Source of the DNA: Alphaproteobacteria bacterium
Lineage (GTDB): Bacteria > Pseudomonadota > Gammaproteobacteria > Burkholderiales > Burkholderiaceae_C
DNA: 64,000 nucleotides
Assembly: GCA_030054175.1 (NCBI GenBank)
Contig: JASGCM010000008.1
Location: 62,001 to 126,000 of the forward strand
Reading direction: 5' to 3'
In this document: piece by piece, positions 4,074 to 63,184 of the stretch
Position numbering within the stretch: position 1 is the first letter of the stretch
Layout of the letters: each line of letters opens with the position of its first letter
The notes under the pieces: model-generated
Databases searched by the model: none
What the model saw: the letters and a program-made list of their open reading frames with translations, nothing else
Told to the model about the DNA's origin: nothing
Program-made: the position numbers and the translations under genes

Positions 4074-4674
4074 CGCCCGTAGTCCCGTTTCATTTACCGA
4101 TGGCGTTCTGGATCCGAAAGCAGCGCAGGGACTTGTCGACTGGCTGCAGCACCTGCAATACCGCTACTACCGCATCACCAACAAAAACGAGCCGGAGCCG
4201 TTTCCGATCTGGCACTGCGAATTGTTGGGTCGGGACTGGCCCATCAACCAAGCGTCTGACTACAGCTGCACGCCGCAATTTCTGCAGGAGCAGACGGGCG
4301 TGCTCTCTGATGTTTGGCGGTCATGCATGCGGGCGCTGCACCTGCCTGTCATGACCCAGTGCCATGGCGTCTACGCCAATGCCAACACCCATGGCAACGA
4401 AGGCAATGTCCACATCGACAGCCAGCACCCGCTGGACAGAACCCTGTTGATCTACGGCGTGCGGCAGTGGCAGGCGGGGTGGGGCGGAGAAACAGTTTTC
4501 TACGACCAGGAGGATCGCCTGCTGGGCTCGGTCATGCCTGCACCCGCTCGGGTGGTGTTCTTCGCTGGGCACATCCGCCATGGCGTCAACCCCATCTCTC
4601 GTGCCTGCCGCGATCTACGGCCGGTCCTGGTGTTCAAAACGCGGCTGCAGGAGCCGCAAAAGGCCCTCTCATGA
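4066..4674 (+). CDS. 2OG-Fe(II) oxygenase (prolyl-4-hydroxylase-like)
   Basis: HID (HxD) in GNVHIDSQHPLDRTLLIYG, WGGETVFYD, distal H in IRHGVNP followed by R. Confidence 0.75.
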   Translation: MLDARSPVSFTDGVLDPKAAQGLVDWLQHLQYRYYRITNKNEPEPFPIWHCELLGRDWPINQASDYSCTPQFLQEQTGVLSDVWRSCMRALHLPVMTQCHGVYANANTHGNEGNVHIDSQHPLDRTLLIYGVRQWQAGWGGETVFYDQEDRLLGSVMPAPARVVFFAGHIRHGVNPISRACRDLRPVLVFKTRLQEPQKALS

Positions 4675-6029
4675 AGTTTCAAATTCACGCCTTGCGTCAA
4701 GATGGCCAGAAAGTCTTGCTGTACTACGACAACCACTTGTCCACGCTGACCTGGCAGGACGGCACGCCCGTGGTGCCGGTTCAGCCCGGCAGTTTCCGGG
4801 ATGCCACGGTGGTGTCGGTCAACCAACCCGGCCGCAAAGGCCAGGTACGCGTTCTCAAGATCAGCCTGGGGCTGTCATGCAATTACGAATGCAGCTACTG
4901 CAACCAGCGGTTTGTGCCGCATGCGGATGCGAGCAACCCGGATGACATTGAGCCGTTCATCATTCAACTCACGGACGCGCTGATTGAGCCACCCGAGCGC
5001 ATCGAATTCTGGGGTGGCGAGCCCTTGGTGTACTGGAAGACGCTCCAACCGCTGGCAGAACGTCTTCGCGGCTTGTATCTGGATGTTCCGTTCAGCGTCA
5101 TCACCAATGGCAGCTTGCTCGACGCCCAGAAGAACGAGTGGCTCGACCGCATGGGGTTTTCTGTGGGCTTGTCACACGACGGTCCGGGCCAGTCGACCCG
5201 TGGACCCGATCCGCTGAACGACCCTGAGAAATACGCCGACATCTTGGACCTGTATGCCCGATTGCATCCTCAGGGCCGTATCAGCATCAACGCCATGGTC
5301 CATGCCAGCAACCAAAGCCGGGCGCAGATTCAGGCTTGGCTGCAGCAGCGCTTTGGCCAGGATGTGAACATCGGGGAGGGCGCCTTCATTGACCCCTACG
5401 ACGAAGGCGGCTTGGCAGCAACCTTGCAAACCCAGCAGGACCATGTGCGTTTCAGGGCCTTGGCTTACAAAGAACTGCGCCAGGGCCTGGCTTCGCGCAT
5501 GTCGGTGGCGCAGCAGCGGATCATGGATTTTGTGCAGTCCATCCGCACCGCACGCCCAGCGTCCTCGCTGGGTCAAAAGTGCGGCATGGACAAACCGGAC
5601 AACCTGGCGGTGGACCTGCACGGCAAGGTTCTTACCTGCCAGAACGTCAGCGCAGCAGCCACTGCGCCCAATGGCCAACCCCACCACATTGGCTATTTGT
5701 CCAATTTGCAGGCAGTCAAGATTCGCAGCGCCACGCACTGGAGCCACCGATCAGACTGCCCCAGTTGCCCGGTCCTGCAATTGTGCAAAGGCTCATGCAT
5801 GTTTTTGCAGGGGCCACTCTGGGATGTGGGTTGCGACGCAGCCTATTCGGACAACGTGCCGTTTCTGGCTGCCGCCATCGAGTACCTCACGGGTTGCATT
5901 CCGTACTGCATAGACGGCGATTTCCGTGAAGACCGCAAAGACATCTTCGGGCAAGTTCATGGGGTCCCCGAACAAAGTGCCAGACGCGTGATTCCGATCC
6001 TGGCCTACGACCGAACTGTTACAGCCTGA
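4671..6029 (+). CDS. Radical SAM/SPASM protein
   Basis: CNYECSYC (CxxxCxxC), EFWGGEPL, and C-terminal CGMDKPDNLAVDLHGKVLTC ... CPSCPVLQLCKGSC SPASM-type cysteines; start overlaps the upstream stop (ATGA). Confidence 0.88.
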   Translation: MKFQIHALRQDGQKVLLYYDNHLSTLTWQDGTPVVPVQPGSFRDATVVSVNQPGRKGQVRVLKISLGLSCNYECSYCNQRFVPHADASNPDDIEPFIIQLTDALIEPPERIEFWGGEPLVYWKTLQPLAERLRGLYLDVPFSVITNGSLLDAQKNEWLDRMGFSVGLSHDGPGQSTRGPDPLNDPEKYADILDLYARLHPQGRISINAMVHASNQSRAQIQAWLQQRFGQDVNIGEGAFIDPYDEGGLAATLQTQQDHVRFRALAYKELRQGLASRMSVAQQRIMDFVQSIRTARPASSLGQKCGMDKPDNLAVDLHGKVLTCQNVSAAATAPNGQPHHIGYLSNLQAVKIRSATHWSHRSDCPSCPVLQLCKGSCMFLQGPLWDVGCDAAYSDNVPFLAAAIEYLTGCIPYCIDGDFREDRKDIFGQVHGVPEQSARRVIPILAYDRTVTA

Positions 6030-6138: not shown

Positions 6139-6522
6139 ATGCCTGAACCGACAAGCTCTGGCGTGGCAGGGGCGGCCGTCGTCTACAAGGCCTTTGGCGG
6201 CACCGCAGCAGCCGTGGCCAGTGGGGCCACTTTGGCCGCCGTGGTGGTCATGCTCATGACGCCACCGCGCGACAAACGCGAATGGGCCGTGGGGCTCATC
6301 AGCACGGTGGTCTCCAGCATTGGGGGCGGTGCCATCACGGTGGAGCATTTTCATTTGCACCACTGGGCGTTTTCTACGGTGGGTCTGTGCGCCCTGGGCG
6401 GGCTCATGTTCGCCTGCGGCTTGCCTGGCTGGGCCATGGTGCGCTGGGTGTTCAACTTCATCGGTCAGCGCCGGGATGCCTCCATCGACCAGGTGGCCAA
6501 GGACGTGAAGGAGATGCTTTGA
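6139..6522 (+). CDS. Phage holin-like membrane protein
   Basis: Small multi-TM protein immediately upstream of the endolysin. Confidence 0.6.
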   Translation: MPEPTSSGVAGAAVVYKAFGGTAAAVASGATLAAVVVMLMTPPRDKREWAVGLISTVVSSIGGGAITVEHFHLHHWAFSTVGLCALGGLMFACGLPGWAMVRWVFNFIGQRRDASIDQVAKDVKEML

Positions 6523-7001
6523 AACCGCAAGACTTCATCGCGCTCATCGCTCCAGCTGCCCAAGCCAGCCGCTTACAGACAGGCATCCCCGCCAGCTTCG
6601 TGGTGGCTCAAGCCGCTCTGGAGTCTGGCTGGGGTGAGTCGGGCCTAGCTAAGCGGGCCAAGAACCTCTTTGGCATCAAGGCTGACCACAGCTGGACGGG
6701 CCAGCGCATCACGCTCAACACCCGAGAGTTTCTGAACCAGCAGTGGGTGGTCATCCCGGCCGACTGGCGTGCCTACCCCGATTGGCAGGCCTGCTTGGTG
6801 GACCATGGGCAGTTTCTGCGCCGCAACAAACGCTACGCCGCCTGTTTCGCCTGCACCACAGGCAAAACCTTCGCCCAAGCCGTGGCCAAGGCGGGCTATG
6901 CCACCGACCCGCGTTATGCAGACAAGTTGATCGCCATGATCGATAACTACCAGCTTGAGGCGCTGGACCTACCGCTGAACCTATCACCGGAGGCCACATG
7001 A
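6519..7001 (+). CDS. Endolysin, glucosaminidase/FlgJ-like
   Basis: IPASFVVAQAALESGWGESGLAKRAKNLFGIKAD ... YATDPRYADKL; TTG start overlapping the holin stop. Confidence 0.85.
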   Translation: MKPQDFIALIAPAAQASRLQTGIPASFVVAQAALESGWGESGLAKRAKNLFGIKADHSWTGQRITLNTREFLNQQWVVIPADWRAYPDWQACLVDHGQFLRRNKRYAACFACTTGKTFAQAVAKAGYATDPRYADKLIAMIDNYQLEALDLPLNLSPEAT

Positions 7002-7579
7002 GTGCGTGGCTATTACCTTGGCTTGGCGCCTTGCCCCTGAGATGGATCGTCTCAAGCCTGCTGGCTGCGGGCCTGTTTTGGGCTGGCTATCAGCTGGGGC
7101 AGCAAGGTGTTCAGCTAGCGTGGAACGCAGAGCGATTGCAGCAACAAACCGCCGCCTTGCAGCAATCCCTGCAGGTGGCCCAGGTCCAAACCCGGCAAGA
7201 ACAGATTAACCAGCGCATTACCACCGATCATGGCATCCGCAAAACCCAACTTCAGCGCCTGTGGCAACCCCCAAAGGCTTCCGCCATTGCAGCTACTGTT
7301 TCTCCTGATGCGCAGTCTGTGCCTGCTGACCTTCGCACTGACGCTGACCGCCTGTGCAATTCAGCCGCCAGCTCCAAGAGTCTCGGCCCCGTGCCCGCCC
7401 ATGCCCAGCCTGCCACAGGTGTTGATGCAGCCGCCGCCCACGTTGTACCTGATCCCACCATCGCTCAGATCCCCGTGAGTTGCGAACAACTTGCCAGTGA
7501 TGCGGCCGAGGCCACGCTCATGGTCTTGTCATTCCAGCGTTGGTACACCGAGCAGGCCAAAGCCACAGAAAAGCCATAG
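6998..7579 (+). CDS. Rz-like spanin (inner membrane subunit)
   Basis: N-terminal TM helix followed by Gln-rich coiled coil; directly downstream of endolysin and contains an out-of-frame Rz1. Confidence 0.75.
   Translation: MSAWLLPWLGALPLRWIVSSLLAAGLFWAGYQLGQQGVQLAWNAERLQQQTAALQQSLQVAQVQTRQEQINQRITTDHGIRKTQLQRLWQPPKASAIAATVSPDAQSVPADLRTDADRLCNSAASSKSLGPVPAHAQPATGVDAAAAHVVPDPTIAQIPVSCEQLASDAAEATLMVLSFQRWYTEQAKATEKP
7308..7478 (+). CDS. Rz1-like outer membrane lipoprotein nested in Rz
   Basis: MRSLCLLTFALTLTAC lipobox followed by a Pro-rich tail, in a different frame within the Rz gene. Confidence 0.75.
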   Translation: MRSLCLLTFALTLTACAIQPPAPRVSAPCPPMPSLPQVLMQPPPTLYLIPPSLRSP

Positions 7580-7696
7580 AACGGTGGCATTAGCCATACC
7601 CCTTTAAAACAGCGCTCCCCTAGGAGTCAACCTCCTTTTGAGAGCGGTAGTTAAATTTTCTGATGCGCACTCGGCACACTTCATCTTGTGGTGATT

Positions 7697-7719
7697 TCGG
7701 CGGTTTTTTTTGCCGCCGA
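7697..7719. terminator. Short hairpin, possible terminator of the phage lysis operon
   Basis: TCGGCGG-TTTTTTTTG-CCGCCGA; T-rich loop rather than a clear T tail, so weak. Confidence 0.3.
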
Positions 7720-7727
7720 GAACAAAG

Positions 7728-7747
7728 ACCTACTATTTTTAGTAGGT
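7728..7747 (+). promoter_or_regulatory. lux-box-like 20-bp palindrome
   Basis: ACCTACTA-TTTT-TAGTAGGT; 8-bp perfect arms, ACCT/AGGT ends as in lux boxes, about 50 bp upstream of the luxI-type start. Confidence 0.65.
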
Positions 7748-7774
7748 TGCACAAAGAAAATAATTGAATACAAT
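7747..7774 (+). promoter_or_regulatory. Putative promoter of the luxI-type gene/BGC operon
   Basis: TTGCAC-16 bp-TACAAT; the lux-box-like palindrome abuts the -35. Confidence 0.6.
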
Positions 7775-7799
7775 ATGTTCATATGTGTAGAGGTTGTGT

Positions 7800-8372
7800 A
7801 TGCTTTTGGTGGATTTAATACGAGACGACTTGCCGTCGCACCTGATGGAAGCGGTGGGGCGCTATCGTCACAAGGTTTTTGTCAGTCACCTTGGTTGGTC
7901 GTTGCGATCCTCGGGAGAGGTTGAGGCAGACGAGTTCGATGGGCATGACGCTGTTTACGTCTCCTCGCAAGACAAGCATGGTCACGTTAACGGCGTAGCA
8001 CGCCTATTGCCGACAACGACCCCTTACTTGTTGGAGAAAGTATTTCCATCGCTTTGGGGTGGATTTGAGTTACCGCGCAGCGCTGAAGTATGGGAGTTGT
8101 CGCGATTTGCTGCAGTCGATTTTGATACTTGCGCATCCCTGGCAAATCAGGCTTCTCCAGGTCATGCGGCAAGTCTATTTCAACAGGTGGTTCGGATTGC
8201 AACAGAGCACGGAGCCCGCACTTTGATTACCGTATCGCCGGTCGGAATGGAGCGTCTGCTCCGAGTCAATGGATTTCGAGCTACTCGAGCAGGTGTTCCT
8301 GCGCAACAGGGCGGGTGCTCTGTTGTTGCGCTCAGTATTCCCCTTGGTGCATACATGGAGATGTGGCAATGA
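7800..8372 (+). CDS. LuxI-family autoinducer synthase (acyl-homoserine-lactone synthase type)
   Basis: LuxI signature positions present: RHKVF, LGW, DEFD, ARLLPTTTPYLL, VFP, WELSRF. Confidence 0.9.
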   Translation: MLLVDLIRDDLPSHLMEAVGRYRHKVFVSHLGWSLRSSGEVEADEFDGHDAVYVSSQDKHGHVNGVARLLPTTTPYLLEKVFPSLWGGFELPRSAEVWELSRFAAVDFDTCASLANQASPGHAASLFQQVVRIATEHGARTLITVSPVGMERLLRVNGFRATRAGVPAQQGGCSVVALSIPLGAYMEMWQ

Positions 8373-9169
8373 ACCGTTCAAAGCTAACTCGCTGGTCACG
8401 CGTCGTGAACCCTCAGACCAATCGCGGGCTGCTCATCCCGATTGATCATGGCCTTACGTCGGGAGAGATGGACGGTCTCCTCCACTCGTCGATGCCGGCA
8501 CGCTGGTTGAGTCACCCAGCGATAACTGCGGTGGTGGCGCATAAGGGTATGGTCGCCCGGCTGAATGAAACAGGCTGCCTCCTGGGGAAAGGTGTCATCT
8601 TGCAGCTGAACGGGATGATCTCGAGTGCTGCTCAGCCTCACCGCAAGGAGTTGCTGACCTCTATCGATGCGGCGCTGCGCATCGGAGCTGATGCGGTGAG
8701 TCTTGACCTCGTCTTCGATGGTGAACAGGACAGCCATAACTTGAAGCTTCTCGGATGCGTGGCAGACGAAGCAGTCGCCTATGGATTGCCGATCCTCGTG
8801 ATGGTCAAGTGCCTCGGCGCGCAGGCCTCTGGCGATTCGGCAATTCCTCGTCTGCGCCGGGTTGTGAGGTCACTCTGGGAGCTAGGCGCAGACGCCGTCA
8901 AGCTACAAAAGCCTGATTCGATGAGCGACATCCCTGTTTTGCTTGATGGGCTCACAAAGGACATCGACGTCTTCTTCGCTGGTGGTCCACGAAGCAGCGA
9001 CGATGAGATCGCTCGTCTTCTGACTCTGGGACTGAACTCGGGTGCCAGGGGCTTGTGTGTTGGACGTAATGTGTTCCAGAACGCTCATCCGGAGAAGTTC
9101 CTGACTGCACTGGGCTTGCGAGCGGCAAGGCAGTCTGACCAGAGCCTATCCCTGGTCAGCGCAGTTTGA
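8369..9169 (+). CDS. DhnA-type class I aldolase, GriI / archaeal ADH synthase-like
   Basis: LLIPIDHGLTSGEM, ADAVSLDLVFDG, GADAVKLQKP, FFAGGPRSSDDE, GARGLCVGRNVFQ; ATGA overlap with the luxI-type gene; partner of the DHQ synthase II gene at 38836. Confidence 0.82.
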   Translation: MNRSKLTRWSRVVNPQTNRGLLIPIDHGLTSGEMDGLLHSSMPARWLSHPAITAVVAHKGMVARLNETGCLLGKGVILQLNGMISSAAQPHRKELLTSIDAALRIGADAVSLDLVFDGEQDSHNLKLLGCVADEAVAYGLPILVMVKCLGAQASGDSAIPRLRRVVRSLWELGADAVKLQKPDSMSDIPVLLDGLTKDIDVFFAGGPRSSDDEIARLLTLGLNSGARGLCVGRNVFQNAHPEKFLTALGLRAARQSDQSLSLVSAV

Positions 9170-38354: not shown

Positions 38355-38797
38355 CCACTACCCATTCGTCGAAGGACTTTGCAAAGGTCCCTGCCTCACT
38401 CGATGCGACTTTGCCGGACAGGCTGTTCCACGCCGACGTAGTCGGCAGCAGCCATGACGGGAACCGTGACTTTTCCCAGGAGCGCGGGCACGCTGTCAGC
38501 GTGGTGGATCTACCGTCGAAGGTCATCAGCATGACCGTTGGCGGGCTCGAGCCGGGTCAGAGCACGCGTAGGCACCGGCACAACTACGAGACGCTAATTT
38601 ACGTGCTTGAAGGCGAGGGCAAGTCGGTCATTGGAGAGCGCGAAGTTGTCTGGAAGCGCGGCGATGCGTTCTACGTGCCGATCTGGGCTTGGCACCAGCA
38701 CATCAACCTCAGCTCGCAACAAAAGGCGACCTACCTGGCCTGCGAGAACGCGCCGCACCTGCAGAATCTGGGCGTCGCCCTGCGCGAAGAAGCCTGA
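38345..38797 (+). CDS. Cupin-domain protein
   Basis: GGLEPGQSTRRHRHNYETLIYVLEGEG ... GDAFYVPIWAWHQHIN. Confidence 0.85.
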   Translation: MSLTTTHSSKDFAKVPASLDATLPDRLFHADVVGSSHDGNRDFSQERGHAVSVVDLPSKVISMTVGGLEPGQSTRRHRHNYETLIYVLEGEGKSVIGEREVVWKRGDAFYVPIWAWHQHINLSSQQKATYLACENAPHLQNLGVALREEA

Positions 38798-38835
38798 GCG
38801 GTACTTTCCCTTGTTGTCAAAAAAGGAACCACATT

Positions 38836-40197
38836 ATGTCAAAACCTACAGAGAGCACCGCTATGCTCCAAGTCACTAATACAGACGTGGCTGTGCCACT
38901 ACCTGTCGCTGCAAAACCAAAGACGGCTCCACCTGTCGTTCTGGCGCCCAGCTCAAATCCCGCATCGAGCAAGACGAGCGAGGTGCAATGGTGGTTTGAT
39001 GCTCGAAAGCTTGCGAGCGAGCGGATCTTGCCTATTGTTGAGCAGAGCAACTGTACTCATGTTGTGATCAATCATGCCCAGCATCGTGGGTTCACGACTG
39101 CTAAGCAGAAAGTCATTGTCGTTGACGCTCCAGCTCAGTTGAAAGACCTTGAGCACGGCGTCTGGGTGATGACCCATGAGGAGTCAATCCTCCGCCAGGC
39201 CGTTAGTTCCGGCCACAAGGCCGGTTTGTGCATCGATGTGATAGATCTCGAGCGAGAGTTTCCGTACTGTATTGAAGTTTGCGAACGTGGTGACGATTTC
39301 GTAGTGATCGATATCGAGCATGCCACCTACATTCCTTACGAGCTTCTGCTGGCCAAAACGGAAGGCAAACCGACCAAGGTCCTCCGCAACATTCCAATCA
39401 GGGGGCTGCAAGGCGTGGTCGACGACATCAACCAGTCCTTAAACGCTTTTGCGACGATGGAGCATGGCATTGGAGTCGTGCTGCGTACGGAGCATGCCGA
39501 GGTGGTCGAGAACCTATCGCAGCGAATCGAGCGGCGCCAAAACACGTCCATCCACCTAGTGAAGGCGCGCGTCGAAGAGGTGCAACACACCGGGCTGGGC
39601 CATCGAGTTTGCGTCGATTGCACGTCGATGATGTCGGCCGAAGAGGGAATGATCGTCGGCTCGACTGGCTGGGGCGGACTGTTTGTCTGCTCCGAGACAC
39701 ACTACCTGCCGCACATGAATCTGCGTGAGTTCCGTGTCAATGCTGGTGCGGTGCATTCATACATCTGGGGACCTGACGATAGCGTCAAATACCTGAGCGA
39801 AATGCAGGCCGGCGCTGAGGTTTTGTGTGTGGACCTCCATGGCAACTCACGCGCTGTAACGGTAGGTCGAGCCAAGACTGAACGTCGGCCAATGCTTAAG
39901 ATTCGATGCAGTGTCGCGCTTGACAACGTAAGTCCAGAAATACAAAACGCAGTCCTAACTGCGAATGCCGCCAAACGAGCGGTGACACCTAGTCAAGAAA
40001 CTGTTTCCGTTGAGGATCCGAATCGAATTTACTTGAATGTTTTTCTGCAGAATGACTGGCATGTTCGGCTCATGGGTGCCGATAGGAAAGTACGACATGC
40101 GACTTTGGTAGAGCCCGGAGATGAGTTGTTGGCCCATGTAGAGTTGCCTGGGAGGCATACAGGATTGCGAATTTCCGAAAGTATCATTGAGCAGTAG
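38836..40197 (+). CDS. 3-dehydroquinate synthase II (archaeal-type), GriH-like
   Basis: EEGMIVGSTGWGGLFVCSETHYLPHMNLREFRVNAGAVHSYIWGP ... YLSEMQAGAEVLCVDLHG ... VGRAKTERRPMLKI. Confidence 0.88.
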   Translation: MSKPTESTAMLQVTNTDVAVPLPVAAKPKTAPPVVLAPSSNPASSKTSEVQWWFDARKLASERILPIVEQSNCTHVVINHAQHRGFTTAKQKVIVVDAPAQLKDLEHGVWVMTHEESILRQAVSSGHKAGLCIDVIDLEREFPYCIEVCERGDDFVVIDIEHATYIPYELLLAKTEGKPTKVLRNIPIRGLQGVVDDINQSLNAFATMEHGIGVVLRTEHAEVVENLSQRIERRQNTSIHLVKARVEEVQHTGLGHRVCVDCTSMMSAEEGMIVGSTGWGGLFVCSETHYLPHMNLREFRVNAGAVHSYIWGPDDSVKYLSEMQAGAEVLCVDLHGNSRAVTVGRAKTERRPMLKIRCSVALDNVSPEIQNAVLTANAAKRAVTPSQETVSVEDPNRIYLNVFLQNDWHVRLMGADRKVRHATLVEPGDELLAHVELPGRHTGLRISESIIEQ

Positions 40198-40833
40198 GAA
40201 ATATTTACTGCTGTGACGACTTGTGCATTCCATAGATCAGTAGCCTAAAAGGACGGTAGTTGTTGCAAGAGTTTTTTGTATTCAATTCTGTATTCCTCAC
40301 CAATCACCACCTGGGGGTCAATTCATTGATGAGGTTGACTCCTTTCATTTGCGCGAACAGCGTGGCGGGTGCAAGTCCCGCTGCTAGCTGGTCACAGTGA
40401 GCAAAGCGAAGCGTAACTACGTGAGGGCGACCGAACGAGGTAGCTTAAGCGTGAATCCGCAGGCGATGAATAAAAACCATAGAAGGTGTTGTCAAGCCCC
40501 TGATGAGAACTCAAAGTGCTCCATTTATGGTCACCCAAATTGCTCCACCTAGCCAGGAGTGGTATGACCCACTCAATCGGGCGTGTCATAGGCCACTTGC
40601 CAGACGCAGGACATTCTTTCAACGCCTCACGAATGAAGGTGCAGCCTGAGTGAGCGTCTCGCGTGCGATACCTACTTGGGCCGGTAAAGTCTCTACAAAG
40701 TGCCGTCAGGATGTCCTCCAGACTGTGATCGGCGTGCGTCAAGGTAGTTGCCGCCTAATTTACGCAGCTAACGGCTGAATAAGCTTTTGCCCTACATGCT
40801 GCGCAATGACGGAATCACGTTCGGGGTTGAGGG

Positions 40834-53803: not shown

Positions 53804-54693
53804 GTTCATGGAAGGTTTTTTTACGCACCTTTGCTTGGGTATTGGTTGCCTGGACCCCTGTATCGGGGCATGCCCTGACGGTGATCGATGACCGAGGAGT
53901 TTCGGTATCCTTTGATCGCTCGCCCCAGCGGATCGTGAGTCTCTTGCCGTCGCTGACCGAGACCGTTTGTGAACTCGATCAATGCCACAGACTGGTCGGC
54001 GTTGACCGGTACTCCAACTATCCGGCCTCTGTGCAACGCTTGCCTCAGGTAGGAGGTGGACTCGATCCCAGCATCGAGGCCATTGTTGCGCTGCGGCCAG
54101 ATGTGGTGTTGATGGCCACATCGTCCAAGGTGGGGGATCGTCTGCAATCGCTGGGAGTCAAAGTTGTGGCCTTGGAGCCCAGAACTCATGCCGATGTGCA
54201 GCGCGTCTTGCTCAAAGTTGGTCAATTGCTGGAGGTGCCCGATGCTCAGAAAGTCTGGCGTGCGATCGATGCTGGGGTCTCTGCTGCTGCGCAGTCCTTG
54301 CCATCCTCGGTTCGAGGTACCCGTGTTTATTTCGAAGTGAATCAAGGACCGTATGCAGCAGGTGAGTCTTCATTCATTGGTGAAACACTGACGCGACTGG
54401 GTGTGAAGAACATTGTCTCTTCCGAGATGGGCCCTTTTCCTAAACTGAATCCCGAGTTTGTGGTTCGAGCCAACCCTGACCTCATCATGGTCGGACAACG
54501 AAGTGCGGTTGGTTTGGTCCAACGACCAGGGTGGGGGAAGATTCGAGCTATTCGAGAGAGTCGGTTGTGTGTATTTGAGGTTGATCAGTCAAATGTGTTG
54601 GTTCGACCAGGTCCTCGAATGGCTGAAGCTGCACGCATCATGGCTGGGTGTCTTACCGCCAAAGCGCAAATCATGGCAGGAAAGAAACCATGA
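53800..54693 (+). CDS. btuF: Vitamin B12 ABC transporter substrate-binding protein
   Basis: Signal-peptide-like N-terminus, RIVSLLPSLTETVCELDQCHRLVGVDRYSNYP. Confidence 0.88.
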   Translation: MSSWKVFLRTFAWVLVAWTPVSGHALTVIDDRGVSVSFDRSPQRIVSLLPSLTETVCELDQCHRLVGVDRYSNYPASVQRLPQVGGGLDPSIEAIVALRPDVVLMATSSKVGDRLQSLGVKVVALEPRTHADVQRVLLKVGQLLEVPDAQKVWRAIDAGVSAAAQSLPSSVRGTRVYFEVNQGPYAAGESSFIGETLTRLGVKNIVSSEMGPFPKLNPEFVVRANPDLIMVGQRSAVGLVQRPGWGKIRAIRESRLCVFEVDQSNVLVRPGPRMAEAARIMAGCLTAKAQIMAGKKP

Positions 54694-55769
54694 TGAAGCA
54701 ACGAACTCGCTGGCTGGTCTTGTTGGGCGTGGTGCTGGCATTGCTACTAACTGCAATTGGCGTTTGCGTTGGCAGTACAGGCCTGGAAAACCTAATGTTG
54801 CTGCTCTGGAGGGCTGATGTTCCTACTGAACAGGCAGCTATGGCCAGGCAAATCGTTTGGGAAATCCGCTTGCCCAGAACGGTGGGGGCGTGGGCGGCAG
54901 GGGCCTTGTTGGGGCTGGCTGGTGCCGTGGCGCAGGGCTTGTTTCGCAATGCGTTGGCAGACCCTTATCTGCTGGGTAGTGCGTCAGGGGCTTCGCTGGG
55001 TGTGGCTATGGCTTTAGCTGCATTGGGTGGTGGTGCGGGCATGCTGGGCGGGGCCAGCATGATGAATGGCGGCATGGCCATTGGCGTCTTTTCCAGCAAC
55101 CTATGGGTGCGACTGGGTTTAACAGGCGCTGCATTTGTGGGCGCCGTCTTGGCGGTGTTGCTGACGCTGCTGCTCTCGCGTGGTGTCGGGCACACCTTGC
55201 GTCTTTTGCTTTCAGGCGTTGTTGTCGGGGTGGTGCTGGGGGCTTGCACCCACTTGGTCTTGCTGTTTTCGCCGGATTCTCTTCAGGCTATGCAAGCCTT
55301 CATGCTTGGCTCCACGGCTTTTGTCGGCTGGACATCGTCGGTGTTGATGCTGGGGGTTTGGTTGATTTGCTGGTTGGTTTCCTGGTTGCTGGCGCGTGTG
55401 CTGGATGGTCTCAGCCTGGGCGATGCAACCGCTTTCAGCCTGGGCTTGCCTGTGGGGCCCATGCGTGTTGCACTGGTGGCTGTTCTGGCTCTGGCCACTG
55501 GCACGGCAGTGGCCCAAACGGGTTTGATCGCTTTTGTGGGCTTAGCTGCCCCACATTTGACGCGTTCTCTTGTCAAAACCACACACGCTAACCTCATGCT
55601 ATTGGCCAGTCTGGTGGGCGGAATCTTGCTGCTGAGTGCTGACATTTTGGCCCGTGGCCTGATTGCCCCTCAAGAATTGCCGGTTGGGGTTTTGACGGCC
55701 GTCTTGGGAGGGGGTTATCTGCTCTGGTTGATGCACCGGGGTCAGACACGTCCAGGAGAAGCCGGATGA
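54690..55769 (+). CDS. btuC: Vitamin B12 ABC transporter permease
   Basis: FecCD-type permease: IRLPRTVGAWAAGALLGLAGAVAQGLFRNALADPYLLGSASGASLG. Confidence 0.9.
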   Translation: MMKQRTRWLVLLGVVLALLLTAIGVCVGSTGLENLMLLLWRADVPTEQAAMARQIVWEIRLPRTVGAWAAGALLGLAGAVAQGLFRNALADPYLLGSASGASLGVAMALAALGGGAGMLGGASMMNGGMAIGVFSSNLWVRLGLTGAAFVGAVLAVLLTLLLSRGVGHTLRLLLSGVVVGVVLGACTHLVLLFSPDSLQAMQAFMLGSTAFVGWTSSVLMLGVWLICWLVSWLLARVLDGLSLGDATAFSLGLPVGPMRVALVAVLALATGTAVAQTGLIAFVGLAAPHLTRSLVKTTHANLMLLASLVGGILLLSADILARGLIAPQELPVGVLTAVLGGGYLLWLMHRGQTRPGEAG

Positions 55770-56563
55770 CAGCCATGAGCAATTTGCGTGCGCTGCAAGT
55801 GGACCATGTGAATGTGTTCTTGGGCCATGGTGCAGCCCGAAAGCAGGTGCTGCACGGCGTGTCACTGAGTCTTGCAGCAGGCCGATGGACGAGCATTGTG
55901 GGTCCCAATGGCGCGGGCAAATCCACTTTGTTGAAAGTGTTTGCCGGTTTGTTGCCGTGCGAGGGGGATGTGCAACTATTGGGCGCGCCATTGCGAAGCT
56001 GGACACATCGGGAACGGGCCCGCCAAATGTCATGGCTTGGACAAAATGAAGCCTCCGCCGATGATTTGACGGTTTGGGATGTGGCCATGTTGGGTCGCTT
56101 GCCGTATCAAGCGTGGTTGGCTCAGCCCAATGAGCAAGACCGCGCTGCAGTGGAGCAGGCCCTGCGAACTACCCAGGCATGGGACTGGCGTGCACGACCG
56201 TTGGGTCAACTCAGCGGAGGGGAGCGTCAGCGTGTTTTATTGGCGCGTGCTTTGGCTGTTGAAGCGACTGTGCTGCTGATGGATGAACCGCTGGCCAACC
56301 TCGACCCGCCACATCAAACAGACTGGATGAACATGGTGCAAGCTTTGGTGAAACAAGGACGCACCGTGGTGAGTGTGTTGCACGAAATCCCCATGGCACT
56401 GCAGGCTGACGAATTGGTCATCTTGGCTAAGGGGTGTGTGACCCATCAGGGTGCAAGCTCGGCAGCAGAAACCCACCGGGCATTGGAGGCGGTGTTCGAT
56501 CACCGTTTGATGGTGCGGGCGCTCGAAGGCCAGTGGGTGACCTTGCCCAGATCGCCCGCCTGA
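55766..56563 (+). CDS. btuD: Vitamin B12 ABC transporter ATP-binding protein
   Basis: GPNGAGKST, LSGGERQRVLLARAL, LLMDEPLANLD. Confidence 0.9.
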   Translation: MTAMSNLRALQVDHVNVFLGHGAARKQVLHGVSLSLAAGRWTSIVGPNGAGKSTLLKVFAGLLPCEGDVQLLGAPLRSWTHRERARQMSWLGQNEASADDLTVWDVAMLGRLPYQAWLAQPNEQDRAAVEQALRTTQAWDWRARPLGQLSGGERQRVLLARALAVEATVLLMDEPLANLDPPHQTDWMNMVQALVKQGRTVVSVLHEIPMALQADELVILAKGCVTHQGASSAAETHRALEAVFDHRLMVRALEGQWVTLPRSPA

Positions 56564-56580
56564 TTGCGGAGTCAAATTTC

Positions 56581-57150
56581 ATGCAACTTGAAAAACCACC
56601 AACAGAAAAACCTTACGAAAAACCCGAAGGTGAGCGACGCGGCATTTTGATCGTCAACACCGGAGATGGCAAAGGTAAGAGTACGGCCGCTTTTGGTCTG
56701 GCGCTGCGCGCGCATGGGCGCGGCAAGCCGGTTAAGATTTATCAGTTCATGAAAGTGCCCAGTGCCCGCTTTGGTGAGCACCGTATGTTCGAACAGATTG
56801 GCATACCGATCGAAGGGCTGGGCGATGGCTTCAGCTGGAAGAGCCAGGATCTGGACCGATCAGCCCAGCTGGCCCGAGAAGGCTGGCTTCGAGCTAAGGC
56901 GATCATTCTTGCCGGTAAACATTTCCTGGTGGTGCTTGATGAAGTCACTTATCCTTTGATCTACGGTTGGCTTGACCTTCAAGACGTTTTGCAGACACTG
57001 CGTACCCGTCCGGCCGACGTGCATGTGTGTCTGACCGGTCGCCGCTGTCCCCCGGAAATCATCGAGCTGGCCGATACCGTGACCGAGATGCAAATGGTCA
57101 AGCACGCCTTTAAGGCTGGTATTCCGGCCCAGCGAGGCATCGAGGACTAA
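56581..57150 (+). CDS. cobO: Cob(I)yrinic acid a,c-diamide adenosyltransferase
   Basis: GILIVNTGDGKGKSTAAFGLALRAHGRG ... VLDEVTYPLIYGWL. Confidence 0.93.
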   Translation: MQLEKPPTEKPYEKPEGERRGILIVNTGDGKGKSTAAFGLALRAHGRGKPVKIYQFMKVPSARFGEHRMFEQIGIPIEGLGDGFSWKSQDLDRSAQLAREGWLRAKAIILAGKHFLVVLDEVTYPLIYGWLDLQDVLQTLRTRPADVHVCLTGRRCPPEIIELADTVTEMQMVKHAFKAGIPAQRGIED

Positions 57151-57151
57151 G

Positions 57152-57862
57152 ATGCATTCATCATCGTCCAGTCCGCAGGCACAGGCTTTTTCTGTTGATG
57201 AACGCGAGGCCGTGTATCGGGCCATTTTCGAGCGTCGGGACATGCGCCACTTTGCCGGTGGCAGTGTGGCTCCTGAAGTATTGCTCCGTTTGCTCACCGC
57301 AGCTCATCATGCGCCCAGTGTGGGATTCATGCAGCCCTGGCGATTCATTCGTATTCAGGATCCTGCCCAGCGTCATCGTCTGCGCGACGCGGTTGAAAGA
57401 GAACGGTTGGCCACGGCACAGGCACTGGGTATGCGGCAGGAAGAATTCATGCAACTCAAGGTTGAGGGCGTGCTCGATGCTGCCGAGCTGTTGCTCGTCT
57501 GTCTGGCTGATGGGCGCGAGCAGCATGTGTTTGGTCGCCGTACCTTGCCGCAGATGGACTTGGCCTCGGCGAGCTGTGCAATCGAGAACCTCTGGCTGGC
57601 AGCCCGTGCCGAAGGGCTGGGTATGGGTTGGGTATCCTTGTTTGAACCTGCCGAACTGGCTGGACTGATGCGTTTGCCTGCGGGAGCCGAACCTATTGCC
57701 TTGCTGTGTCTGGGGCCGGTGCGCAAGTTTTATAACGAGCCCATGTTGCAACAGCAAAAGTGGGCGCGTCGCCAACCCTTGGCTGAACTGGTTTATGACG
57801 GTGTCTGGGGGCAGCCCTGCAGTCTGTTTGCTTCAAAGCAGGATGAGAAGGCTCAGCCTTGA
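57152..57862 (+). CDS. bluB: 5,6-dimethylbenzimidazole synthase
   Basis: RAIFERRDMRHFAGGSV ... HHAPSVGFMQPWRFI ... GLGMGWVSLFEP. Confidence 0.93.
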   Translation: MHSSSSSPQAQAFSVDEREAVYRAIFERRDMRHFAGGSVAPEVLLRLLTAAHHAPSVGFMQPWRFIRIQDPAQRHRLRDAVERERLATAQALGMRQEEFMQLKVEGVLDAAELLLVCLADGREQHVFGRRTLPQMDLASASCAIENLWLAARAEGLGMGWVSLFEPAELAGLMRLPAGAEPIALLCLGPVRKFYNEPMLQQQKWARRQPLAELVYDGVWGQPCSLFASKQDEKAQP

Positions 57863-58827
57863 ATATGGAGGCCTTCCTGCATAACACCACGCTCGCCATT
57901 CTGGTGATGGCGGTGGCTTTGCTGGTGGATACGGTCTGGGGGGAGCCGCCTGCAGGCTGGCATCCCGTGGTTTGGATTGGACATTTCCTGGGCTGGGCGG
58001 GGACTTGGGTTGCGCCTGCAGCGCAGCAGATCACGCCCCGCATGGATGTAAGGGCTTTTGCGCGTGGCGCTCTGGCTTGGCTGGCTGGCGCTGTGGTCGT
58101 TGCCGGGTTGGCTTGGGGTGCCGCGGCTTTGCTGGCACGGTTGCCAGTTTGGGCACATGTTCTCTGTCTTGGCCTTATCCTCAAACCTTTGATGGCTTGG
58201 CGAATGCTGCGTGAAGAGGTGATGGCGGTAGAGCAAGCACTTTCGGATTCCCTGCACGCAGGGCGCAAACGGCTTGGCTGGCTGTGCAGCCGTGATGTGC
58301 ACATACTCGATGCGACGCAAGTGCGTGAAACCGCCATCGAGACCTTGGCCGAGAACCTCAACGATTCGGTCATTGCCCCACTTTTCTGGTTTGCAGTCGC
58401 CGGTCTGCCGGGGGCAACCCTTTACCGTTTCGCGAATACCGCTGACGCCATGTGGGGCTACCCCGGTAACCGTGCGGGTCGGTCCTGGACATGGGCAGGC
58501 AAGTGGGCAGCCCGAGCCGACGATGTGCTTTCTTGGGTGCCTGCGCGACTGACTGCGGTTTTGCTGGTGCTGGTTGCTGGTCGTCTATGGTTGCCAGGGC
58601 TACGCAGTGAGGCTGTGCGTACCCCTTCCCCTAATGGGGGCTGGCCCATGGGTGCCATGGCTTTGCTTTTGGGCGTGCGGCTGGGCAAACCTGATGTTTA
58701 CATGCTCTACTGTGCGGGCAGAAACGTTTTGCCAGAAGACACTGAACATGCCTGCCATTTGTCCAAGCGTGCGGTGGGGCTTGGATTGTTTGTATGCGGG
58801 GTTTTAGCAGGAATGGCACATGCTTGA
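57859..58827 (+). CDS. cbiB: Adenosylcobinamide-phosphate synthase
   Basis: DTVWGEPPAGWHPVVWIGHFLG ... LAENLNDSVIAPLFWFAVAGLPGA. Confidence 0.92.
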   Translation: MNMEAFLHNTTLAILVMAVALLVDTVWGEPPAGWHPVVWIGHFLGWAGTWVAPAAQQITPRMDVRAFARGALAWLAGAVVVAGLAWGAAALLARLPVWAHVLCLGLILKPLMAWRMLREEVMAVEQALSDSLHAGRKRLGWLCSRDVHILDATQVRETAIETLAENLNDSVIAPLFWFAVAGLPGATLYRFANTADAMWGYPGNRAGRSWTWAGKWAARADDVLSWVPARLTAVLLVLVAGRLWLPGLRSEAVRTPSPNGGWPMGAMALLLGVRLGKPDVYMLYCAGRNVLPEDTEHACHLSKRAVGLGLFVCGVLAGMAHA

Positions 58828-59833
58828 AAAACGCATCCACGGCGGCGCAGATGCGCTGGGCCAGCCGCTCTATGATTTCTCAACAAACAGCAACGCCTGC
58901 GGCCCCTGTCCGGTTGTGCTCCAAGAGATTCAGGCTACAGATGCAAGTCATTACCCAGACCCGTTCTATGCAGAGTTGCGTCAAGCGATCGCAGCTTTTC
59001 ACAAGGTAGACGTTACACATGTGGTTTTGGCTGCAAGTGCCAGCGAGTTCATCTTCCGCATCAGTGCATGGGTGGCGCAATTTGCTCATCGGCAGCAACG
59101 CACGGCCCGAGTTGAGCTGCCCGTACATGGTTACGGTGACTATCTCCATGCCTCCACAGCTTGGGGGCTAGCGGCGTCCGAGTCGCCTGCCCAGGCTGAT
59201 CTGATCTGGGGTTGTGATCCTTCGAGCCCGCTGGGTGAGCCCCACATGAGGCTGGCAGAGCGTGTACAGGATTTATTGCCCACCCAGACCTTTGTGCTAG
59301 ATGGCGCTTACCGCCCCCTGCGGTTGGATGGCGATTTGGCACTTTCTGATCATCATCTCGATCGGGTTTGGCAATTGTGGAGCCCCAACAAGGCGCTTGG
59401 TCTGACGGGTATTCGGGCGGCTTACGCGATTGCTCCGGCTGGATTTCAGCAGCAGGTGGAACAAATCGAAGGGTTGGCTCCCTCCTGGCCTATTGGGGCG
59501 CATGGCTGCGCCATGCTGGCCGCTTGGGTGCGACAGGACGTGCAAGATTGGCTAGCAGAGAGTCGGGACATCCTTAAGCGTTGGAAACTACGCCAGCTGG
59601 CTATTTGTACTTCGTTGGGCTGGCAGCCCGGTTCAAGCGTTACCAATTTTCACTTGGCGACGCCTGACACAGCGCACATGGCGCAGGATTTGGCCACCCT
59701 GCGTGCGCAGGGCATCAAGTTGCGCGATACGAGCTCGTTCGGTTTGCCGGGACAGGTGCGCATGGGTGTGCTACCGCCCGTTGCACAGGATGCCTTGTCG
59801 CAAGCCTGGTGCCGAATAAAGGATAAAAGATGA
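58820..59833 (+). CDS. Threonine-phosphate decarboxylase-like aminotransferase
   Basis: Aminotransferase class I/II pattern; WSPNKALGLTGIRAAYAI PLP-Lys region; operon context. Confidence 0.85.
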   Translation: MLEKRIHGGADALGQPLYDFSTNSNACGPCPVVLQEIQATDASHYPDPFYAELRQAIAAFHKVDVTHVVLAASASEFIFRISAWVAQFAHRQQRTARVELPVHGYGDYLHASTAWGLAASESPAQADLIWGCDPSSPLGEPHMRLAERVQDLLPTQTFVLDGAYRPLRLDGDLALSDHHLDRVWQLWSPNKALGLTGIRAAYAIAPAGFQQQVEQIEGLAPSWPIGAHGCAMLAAWVRQDVQDWLAESRDILKRWKLRQLAICTSLGWQPGSSVTNFHLATPDTAHMAQDLATLRAQGIKLRDTSSFGLPGQVRMGVLPPVAQDALSQAWCRIKDKR

Positions 59834-61296
59834 CTGCTCGATGCGTGATGGTGCTGGGCACCACCAGCGGCGCTGGCAAGAGCTGGTTGGTTACAGCCTT
59901 GTGCCGCTATTACGCCCGTCAGGGACTCAAGGTCGTGCCCTTCAAAGCGCAGAACATGAGCAACAATGCCCGAGTGGTGGCGAATGCAGGTGACCGGGAG
60001 GGTGAAATCGGTTCGGCCCAGTATTTCCAGGCCTTGGCCGCAAAAGCCGAGCCCGAGGTGCGGATGAACCCTTTGTTGCTCAAGCCTGAAGCAGACACTC
60101 GCAGCCAGGTCGTGCTGCTCGGTGAGGTCAGTGGAGAGCTCAGCGCCATGCCTTGGCGCGGCCGCAGCGAAAAAGTCTGGCCGCATATCGTGGCAGCTCT
60201 CGATGCGCTGAGAGCCGAAAACGATGTGGTGGTTATTGAGGGTGCAGGATCCCCGGCGGAGATTAACCTGCACGCCAGCGACATCGTCAACATGCGTGTA
60301 GCGCGTCACGCCCAAGCACAGTGTCTTTTGGTCACCGACATCGACAGGGGAGGCGCGTTTGCACATCTCTACGGTACGTGGGCGCTACTGCCTCCAGAAG
60401 AGCGGGCGCTCATACGCGGTTTTGTGCTGAACAAATTCCGAGGCGACCCCGCGTTACTTGCGCCTGCACCACAAATGGTGTACGAGATGACTGGGGTCCC
60501 GGTGGTGGCTACGCTGCCCATGTGGTGGCAGCATGGACTGCCTGAGGAAGACGGTGTGTTCGACGATAGAACCCACGCCAATGGTGCAATCACCCGCACA
60601 GTTGCTGTCATCGCCTATCCACGCATCAGCAACGTGGATGAATTCCAGCCACTCAAGAATGTACCTGGCGTGCGCCTGATCTGGGCCCGCACGCCGGCAG
60701 ATTGCGCCTTAGTTGACTGGATAGTGCTGCCTGGCTCAAAGGCCAGTGCCGCAGATCTGGATTGGCTACGTGCACAGGGCCTTGACCAGACGGTTGCAAA
60801 ACACGCTGCACAGGGCGGTGCTGTTCTCGGTATTTGCGGAGGACTGCAGATGCTGGGTGAAGCACTGATCGACCCGCACGGCATCGACGGTAACTCTCCC
60901 GGTCTGGGACTTTTGCCACTCGTCACCGTCTTCGAACCGCACAAAATCGTTTGTCGCACGCAAGCGCATTTTGGTACCTTGACCGGGCCCTGGGCGGGAC
61001 TCACTGGCGTGATTGCGGGCGGTTACGAAATTCATCACGGCCAGACAATGCAACACCTGGGCATGGCTGAACAAGGTCAGTTCGCCCGAGAGGTCATGCC
61101 CGATTTGGCTTGGCAAAATCGGAATGGAAACGTGCTGGGCTGTTATCTACACGGATTGTTCGAATCACCCGCTGTACTGAATGCCTTGTTCGGTGCTGAG
61201 GCTCCTTCGCTGGAGCGAGTGTTTGAAGGACTGGCTGATTTTCTGCAAATCCATGTCGAGCCAGGTGTGCTCGACGCTCTTATTGAAAAGGACTGA
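59830..61296 (+). CDS. cobQ: Cobyric acid synthase
   Basis: GTTSGAGKSWLVTALCRYYARQGLKVVPFKAQNMSNNARV ... LGICGGLQMLGEAL. Confidence 0.95.
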   Translation: MTARCVMVLGTTSGAGKSWLVTALCRYYARQGLKVVPFKAQNMSNNARVVANAGDREGEIGSAQYFQALAAKAEPEVRMNPLLLKPEADTRSQVVLLGEVSGELSAMPWRGRSEKVWPHIVAALDALRAENDVVVIEGAGSPAEINLHASDIVNMRVARHAQAQCLLVTDIDRGGAFAHLYGTWALLPPEERALIRGFVLNKFRGDPALLAPAPQMVYEMTGVPVVATLPMWWQHGLPEEDGVFDDRTHANGAITRTVAVIAYPRISNVDEFQPLKNVPGVRLIWARTPADCALVDWIVLPGSKASAADLDWLRAQGLDQTVAKHAAQGGAVLGICGGLQMLGEALIDPHGIDGNSPGLGLLPLVTVFEPHKIVCRTQAHFGTLTGPWAGLTGVIAGGYEIHHGQTMQHLGMAEQGQFAREVMPDLAWQNRNGNVLGCYLHGLFESPAVLNALFGAEAPSLERVFEGLADFLQIHVEPGVLDALIEKD

Positions 61297-61298
61297 CC

Positions 61299-62360
61299 AT
61301 GAGCTATTCCATCCCTTATATCGACGACATTGCCCAGCCCGAACTTGCCACGCGGCTTCAGTACAAGCTCGACAACAAGACCAAACCGCTGGGCTCCTTA
61401 GGGCGCATCGAATCGCTGGCTAGGCGCATCGGATTGGTGTTGGGCAGCGACGCCCCAGAGCTGCACGAACCGCAACTTGTGGTCTATGCAGGTGACCACG
61501 GCCTGGCAGCGCGCGGGGTTTCAGCCTACCCCAGTGATGTGACTTGGCAGATGGTGGAGAATTTTCTAGCCGGGGGCGCCGCAGTTAGCGTGCTGGCACG
61601 CCAGAACGGCATTGGCCTTACCGTGGTGGACTGCGGTGTGCGGCACGACTTTGGGCCACGCGCAGGTTTGTTAGTGCGCAAGGTGGCTGCTGGGACTGCC
61701 GATGCACTGCAGGGGCCTGCAATGACCGTAGCGCAACGCGACATGGCCCTTGCGAATGGGGCCGATTTGCTCCAGGACCTGCCTGGCAACGCCCTGTTGC
61801 TGGGGGAAATGGGCATTGGCAACACTTCGGCAGCATCCCTCTTGATGAGCCGTTTGACCGGGCTCGATATCGAGGACTGCACAGGCGCCGGCACTGGACT
61901 GGACGCTCCTGCGGTACTACGCAAGATTGGCATCCTGCGTGAGGTGCTGTCCCACCATGCCGATGTTCATGCGCCGCTGGATGCCCTTGCGGCATTCGGT
62001 GGTTTCGAGATCGCCACCATGGTCGGCTCTGTGCTGCAGGCCGCCGCGCAGCGGCGGCTCATCGTGGTCGATGGCTTCATTGCCACGTCTGCCGTATTGG
62101 TGGCCAGCAAGCTTCAACCTTCGGTACTGCAGCGCTGCGTATTTGCGCACCGCTCAGGCGAGCGAGGTCATGCGCTGATGTTGGCCCATCTTCAGGCTGA
62201 GCCCTTGCTGGACCTGGGTCTTCGCCTGGGAGAGGGATCGGGGGCGGCCTTGGCGTGGCCGCTGCTGGTTTCTTCCTGCGCCGTGCTGCGCGAGATGGCC
62301 AGCTTCGAGTCCGCTGGGGTGTCCCGCCAGGAGGAGACCGCAGCACTGCAGAAAGTTTGA
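61299..62360 (+). CDS. cobT: Nicotinate-nucleotide--dimethylbenzimidazole phosphoribosyltransferase
   Basis: LDNKTKPLGSLGRIESLA ... VYAGDHGLAARGVSAYPSDVTWQMV ... GEMGIGNTSAAS. Confidence 0.95.
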   Translation: MSYSIPYIDDIAQPELATRLQYKLDNKTKPLGSLGRIESLARRIGLVLGSDAPELHEPQLVVYAGDHGLAARGVSAYPSDVTWQMVENFLAGGAAVSVLARQNGIGLTVVDCGVRHDFGPRAGLLVRKVAAGTADALQGPAMTVAQRDMALANGADLLQDLPGNALLLGEMGIGNTSAASLLMSRLTGLDIEDCTGAGTGLDAPAVLRKIGILREVLSHHADVHAPLDALAAFGGFEIATMVGSVLQAAAQRRLIVVDGFIATSAVLVASKLQPSVLQRCVFAHRSGERGHALMLAHLQAEPLLDLGLRLGEGSGAALAWPLLVSSCAVLREMASFESAGVSRQEETAALQKV

Positions 62361-62362
62361 GT

Positions 62363-63184
62363 ATGTCGGTCAGGTTGGTCCGTCTTGCCCGCCACTTATT
62401 GTTGGCGCTCCAGTTTTTTACACGCATACCCGTGACAGGACGCTTGGCGCAATGGGTCGGTTATTCGCCTGCCATGCTGCGGGCCAGTGCTGCCCACTTT
62501 CCGGCAGTGGGATGGGTTGTGGGTGGGTTGACGGCGGCGGTCTTTGCAGTATGGACGATCGTGCTGCCGCCGCAGCCAGCCAGTGCCTGGCTGGCCGCTG
62601 TTCTGAGCACCTCGTTCAGTGTTGTGCTGACTGGCGCCTTTCACGAAGATGGGTTGGCCGATACCGCTGATGGCCTAGGGGGTGGGCTGACACGCGAGCG
62701 TGCGCTTGACATCATGAAGGACTCTCGCATTGGTACTTACGGCGCTATTGCGCTGATGCTGGCTCTGGGGACCAAATTGGGCCTGTTGGTGCTACTGGCC
62801 CAGATCGGCATGGCATCTGCCGTGACTTGCGTTTTTGTAGCACATGTCACGTCGCGACTGATGCCACTGTTTTTGATTCGCAATATGGTGCATGTGGGCA
62901 GCATGCCGACATCCAAGTCCAAGCCCTTGGCCGAGCAGATCGACAATGCAGGCGTGTTTGTGGGCTTGCTTTGGTGGAGCGCGTCCATGGTGCTGTCCGG
63001 CTTCTGGTTGCCGTCAGCACACTTGTTTGCAGGTACGCTGCTGTCCGCTTTTTTCGCGCTTTGTATTGCTTGGCGTTTACAGCGGCGCTTGCAAGGCTTC
63101 ACCGGTGATGGCTTGGGCGCGACTCAGCAAATGGCAGAAATCGGTTTCTTGCTTGGGGTGGCGTTGGCCGCCAACTCTGCATGA
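62363..63184 (+). CDS. cobS: Adenosylcobinamide-GDP ribazoletransferase
   Basis: LQFFTRIPV ... GAFHEDGLADTADGLGGGLTRERALDIMKDSRIGTYGA. Confidence 0.95.
   Translation: MSVRLVRLARHLLLALQFFTRIPVTGRLAQWVGYSPAMLRASAAHFPAVGWVVGGLTAAVFAVWTIVLPPQPASAWLAAVLSTSFSVVLTGAFHEDGLADTADGLGGGLTRERALDIMKDSRIGTYGAIALMLALGTKLGLLVLLAQIGMASAVTCVFVAHVTSRLMPLFLIRNMVHVGSMPTSKSKPLAEQIDNAGVFVGLLWWSASMVLSGFWLPSAHLFAGTLLSAFFALCIAWRLQRRLQGFTGDGLGATQQMAEIGFLLGVALAANSA

Follow-up and report, generated by a model that had tools for sequence, protein, structure and literature searches.

A lux box in class II position before luxI and an NRPS/PKS cluster in a draft genome assembly without a detected LuxR

The luxI–NRPS/PKS block and its prophage neighbour

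The window, by which we mean the whole 64,000-nucleotide stretch of DNA that was analysed, contains an intact luxI gene (7800–8372, plus strand) that is the first gene of a predicted operon. Its product belongs to the acyl-homoserine-lactone (AHL) synthase family (PF00765, E=2.7e-22) and retains R23, F27, W33, E42, D44, D47, R68, E99, S101, and R102, each of which is invariant in the alignment. All ten are residues that an AHL synthase is expected to have, and together with the PF00765 domain they identify the protein as a LuxI-family AHL synthase. The protein is 53–58% identical to the LuxI proteins of Verminephrobacter aporrectodeae and Limnohabitans. Phage LuxI matches are only 28–45% identical and give no indication that luxI came from a phage.

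Immediately downstream on the same strand, a gene for a DeoC/LacD-type aldolase of the ADH-synthase/BagB-FevI-like kind (8369–9169, plus strand) overlaps the luxI stop codon in an ATGA, and is followed by an antibiotic-type NRPS/PKS cluster (9195–40197, plus strand) that probably shares the luxI promoter. The cluster encodes an AMP-ligase, an OsmC protein, PKS/NRPS modules, a MATE exporter, a PPTase, an acyltransferase and a cupin, as well as a CADD/haem-oxygenase-like oxygenase and a DHQ-synthase-II (DHQS-II) of the BagC/FevH-like type. The aldolase and the DHQS-II, whose scores fall below the equivalog cut-offs, suggest supply of a 3-amino-4-hydroxybenzoate (3,4-AHBA)-type precursor, for which the bagremycin/ferroverdin systems provide the comparison (PMC6692506). 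GC3 is 0.50 in luxI, 0.65 in the aldolase gene, 0.86–0.90 in the NRPS/PKS core and 0.57 in the DHQS gene, and because it varies from 0.50 to 0.90 along the block, we regard the block as a mosaic. The cluster is bounded by the aldolase gene (8369–9169) on one side and the DHQ-synthase-II-like gene (38689–40197) on the other, and both are lower in GC3 than the core.

The immediate upstream neighbours of luxI are prophage lysis genes (endolysin and Rz-like spanin; 6522–7579, plus strand). They belong to a lambda-like prophage, and the luxI block starts straight after them. In relatives, luxR commonly lies upstream of luxI, at the place where the window has the lysis genes, and the junction between prophage and block is a plausible site of luxR loss. 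A search of this junction (7580–7727) for luxR remnants and att-like repeats found neither; no match was longer than 13 nt. A 13-bp inverted match, AGGAGTCAACCTC, is present at 7622–7634 and 40331–40343 and brackets the luxI-NRPS/PKS block; it may be due to chance or mark the end of an element.

The prophage tail region is duplicated on the contig, at G000:C17:2422–11233 and 54179–63170, the two copies being 70–74% identical. The copy at 54179–63170 extends to positions 1–1170 of the window and the other is located further upstream. A prophage tail-fibre ORF (635–1570 of the window) ends in Asn-Cys repeats, NCNCNCNCCGC, and downstream of it the same phage carries a radical-SAM gene (4578–6029; phrog_1802, E=8e-54). 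The tail-fibre repeats and the radical-SAM gene possibly represent a phage-borne peptide modification.

The lux box and its promoter geometry

The 20-mer ACCTACTATTTTTAGTAGGT is located at 7728–7747 (plus strand), and the luxI ATG at 7800 is 52 bp past it. The 20-mer is a palindrome in which 8-bp perfect arms, ACCTACTA and TAGTAGGT, flank a TTTT centre. An earlier note on this DNA had described it as a Lux-box-like element, and both its coordinates and its letters proved exact. The same note had proposed a genome scan for other copies; none was found in a genome-wide pattern search that allowed up to three mismatches, making the 20-mer a single-copy sequence in the 3.1-Mb genome, and it is also the sole match in the genome to a relaxed symmetric pattern. 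The probability of a 20-mer with eight perfect outer pairs arising in a 220-nt region of the same composition is ~0.004.

We compared the site with the luxI loci of ~110 LuxI relatives from 400 sampled family genomes and the GTDB species set (overlapping sets). A profile scan recovered relatives; LuxI scans with a single sequence against genome contigs and viral contigs, and a blastn search against plasmids, yielded none. Of 81 loci, 75 have an inverted repeat of the family consensus NNCT-N12-AGNN, to which our 20-mer conforms, before luxI; the loci are related, such that the counts do not represent independent events. The identical 20-mer is found 75 bp before luxI in V. aporrectodeae At4 (L079), with a luxR gene nearby whose product contains the PF03472 and PF00196 domains. 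The boxes of two genomes of the Limnohabitans genus have two (G387) and five (G088) mismatches to ACCTACTATTTTTAGTAGGT, the box of the congener G419 has two, and that of G066 has three. The luxI gene of G066 is split over two frames (L063:15102–15852), by a frameshift or a sequencing error, and its box is still conserved. The region between luxR and luxI of V. aporrectodeae (L079:2010–2740) resembles, by eye, an insertion-sequence remnant that ends just before the intact box.

The −10 element TACAAT (7769–7774, plus strand) ends 27 nt past the lux box, and the spacing is equal in relatives. When the loci were aligned on their boxes, the sole strong downstream signal was a T at +22 and AAT at +25 to +27, i.e., a TNNAAT −10. 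The AAT ends exactly at +27 in 40 of the 75 boxed loci, and the window's promoter fits this pattern; no conserved −35 was present in the alignment of the 75 boxes. The earlier note had postulated a TTGCAC-16-TACAAT promoter. Both elements are present, separated by a 16-nt spacer, and the −10 and its 27-nt distance are conserved, but the −35-like TTGCAC (7747–7752, plus strand), which shares the last base of the lux box, is weak, matching TTGACA at three of six positions, and is unconserved in relatives. A promoter scan with a cut-off of at least 9 of 12 matches made no call for the pair.

The −10 predicts a transcription start at 7781 (plus strand), followed by a Shine-Dalgarno-like AGAGG (7789–7793, plus strand) 6 nt before the luxI ATG. 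With this predicted start the box centre would lie near −43, and the proposal of a class II position agrees with the 27-nt distance seen in relatives. By sequence, the arrangement corresponds to that of a class II site, which is centred at about −42.5 from the start and replaces the −35. The lux box of the Vibrio fischeri archetype overlaps the −35 region. Our locus shows what a class II site would lead one to expect: the box appears to take up the −35 region, and the −10 alone is conserved.

The 20-mer is thus an inverted repeat of ~20 bp upstream of luxI whose sequence is common to the boxes of LuxR-containing relatives (Verminephrobacter, Limnohabitans, and the congener), and the box and its spacing are shared with the luxI loci of these relatives, bearing out the identity first suggested for it. 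We conclude that ACCTACTATTTTTAGTAGGT is a true lux box, that by sequence it occupies a class II position, and that it is the predicted operator for a LuxR–AHL dimer. The 75 boxes, with their fixed 27-nt distance to the −10, can serve to define the lux promoter in this set of LuxI loci.

The search for a receptor

The window lacks a LuxR-type gene, as the earlier note had observed, and we found none genome-wide. The assembly is a 39-contig draft with an estimated completeness of 99.59% and an estimated contamination of 4.9%. It contains no Autoind_bind (PF03472) domain. Three GerE-domain proteins are encoded in the genome, all of them receiver-HTH response regulators as judged from their sequences, and a profile of the relatives' LuxR proteins matched solely the HTHs of these three. 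A receptor combining PF03472 with PF00196, which would make a complete LuxI/LuxR circuit, was not found in the assembly. The idea of an orphan or distant LuxR acting on the box from another place in the genome is therefore unsupported: three approaches revealed neither an Autoind_bind domain nor a LuxR-family receptor in the assembly. With zero luxR genes in the assembly, which is a draft, luxI here is a candidate LuxI solo.

We examined how common this is among relatives. Each of the 20 family relatives that were tested and have an intact LuxI also has LuxR, and so does G066 with its split luxI. A search of 85 genomes of the genus found LuxI in three of them; G419 and G460 have LuxR too, and the window genome has LuxI alone. 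LuxR lies within the ~6-kb flanks in 70 of the 80 named luxI loci. Nine of the other ten were searched genome-wide, and LuxR was found elsewhere in seven, at a sub-threshold score in one and not at all in one, the last two being MAGs of unknown completeness. Because LuxI-bearing relatives nearly all have LuxR, the window genome is unusual, subject to its draft status.

A promoter probably parted from its receptor, and known systems

These observations are probably best explained by a stranded lux box, one built for LuxR–AHL activation of luxI and the cluster, with a receptor that was lost or never acquired. Ancestrally, the AHL that LuxI produced would have bound LuxR, and LuxR–AHL would have bound the lux box beside RNA polymerase at the class II promoter, thereby switching on luxI and the cluster with positive feedback. 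The transcript would begin with luxI and run via the ATGA overlap into the 3,4-AHBA-type NRPS/PKS cluster. The receptor gene is then absent from the genome, presumably through loss of luxR. The operon, with a weak −35 and a good −10, may now be expressed at a basal level, and the cell would make an AHL that the same cell cannot sense. Several points stand against this explanation. A draft of 39 contigs with an estimated 4.9% contamination may lack a small contig or plasmid that carries luxR; no luxR remnant was found at the junction; and a box that stays perfectly symmetric after its receptor is gone would be surprising, except after a recent loss or in the presence of a receptor after all.

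Such a receptor is the main alternative, though an unlikely one: a cognate luxR that lies in an assembly gap, on a plasmid left out of the bin or in the accessory DNA of sister cells, and that would place the cluster under ordinary LuxI/LuxR control. It would be in keeping with the 39-contig draft, with LuxR in 20 of 20 tested family relatives that have an intact LuxI, with the few relatives that keep luxR apart from luxI, and with the perfect preservation of the box. On the other hand, completeness is estimated at 99.59%, and 70 of 80 loci have luxR next to luxI or at most a few kb away, whereas here luxI sits >60 kb into a 133-kb contig and no luxR is close to it. Use of the palindrome by an unrelated regulator, for example a receiver-type GerE or other HTH protein, appears very improbable. 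Regulators of many families recognise symmetric operators, and the genome does encode three GerE-domain proteins, but the palindrome agrees in sequence and in geometry with the LuxR-linked boxes of relatives, with an identical copy beside the Verminephrobacter luxR, and the site has no second copy in the genome. It is hardly credible that the palindrome is a product of chance or an intrinsic terminator hairpin. A scan labels it terminator-like on the minus strand, but there is no convincing minus-strand gene to terminate, the stem has only three GC pairs and on the plus strand is not followed by a U-tract; it is not the GC-rich stem with a U-tract downstream of a gene that defines an intrinsic terminator. 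Both its sequence and its fixed distance to the −10 are conserved across genera, and the chance probability is ~0.004.

Returning to a receptor that was lost or never acquired, a more speculative and rather doubtful proposal is that this LuxI solo at the head of an NRPS/PKS operon keeps a perfect box with AHL emission uncoupled from sensing, the AHL being broadcast along with the product to neighbours with a matching receptor (e.g., Limnohabitans-like relatives), or with a non-LuxR protein having taken over the box. The locus would be a natural case of a quorum-sensing promoter parted from its receptor, before a biosynthetic cluster that is perhaps silent as a result. Should the box still respond to a heterologous LuxR, the addition of LuxR and AHL would be a direct way to turn on the uncharacterised 3,4-AHBA-type cluster.

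In a limited literature search, we did not find a description of a LuxI-headed NRPS/PKS operon that retains a lux box in a LuxR-less genome. As in the Vibrio fischeri luxI archetype (PMC5601948), a ~20-bp inverted repeat lies upstream and luxI is first in the operon presumed to be controlled; unlike the archetype, our assembly lacks a LuxR gene and an NRPS/PKS cluster makes up the body of the operon. The luxI loci of V. aporrectodeae and Limnohabitans have an identical or near-identical box and equal −10 spacing, but their luxR is only a few kb away at most, and no cluster homologous to the present one was detected beside their luxI. LuxI solos of Sphingobium (PMC4288048) and the Roseobacter clade (PMC3824088), proposed to emit AHL without sensing it, likewise have an AHL synthase with conserved residues and no adjacent LuxR. 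Those solos are defined by their neighbourhood, whereas here LuxR was not found genome-wide, a canonical box is kept and luxI stands at the head of a biosynthetic cluster. Biosynthetic clusters linked to LuxR are common, and about half contain a luxI homologue (PMC5872303); those resemble our case, with quorum control considered likely. That survey required a LuxR gene, and the present cluster has LuxI without LuxR. The case thus combines the known LuxI solos with the known quorum-linked biosynthetic clusters.
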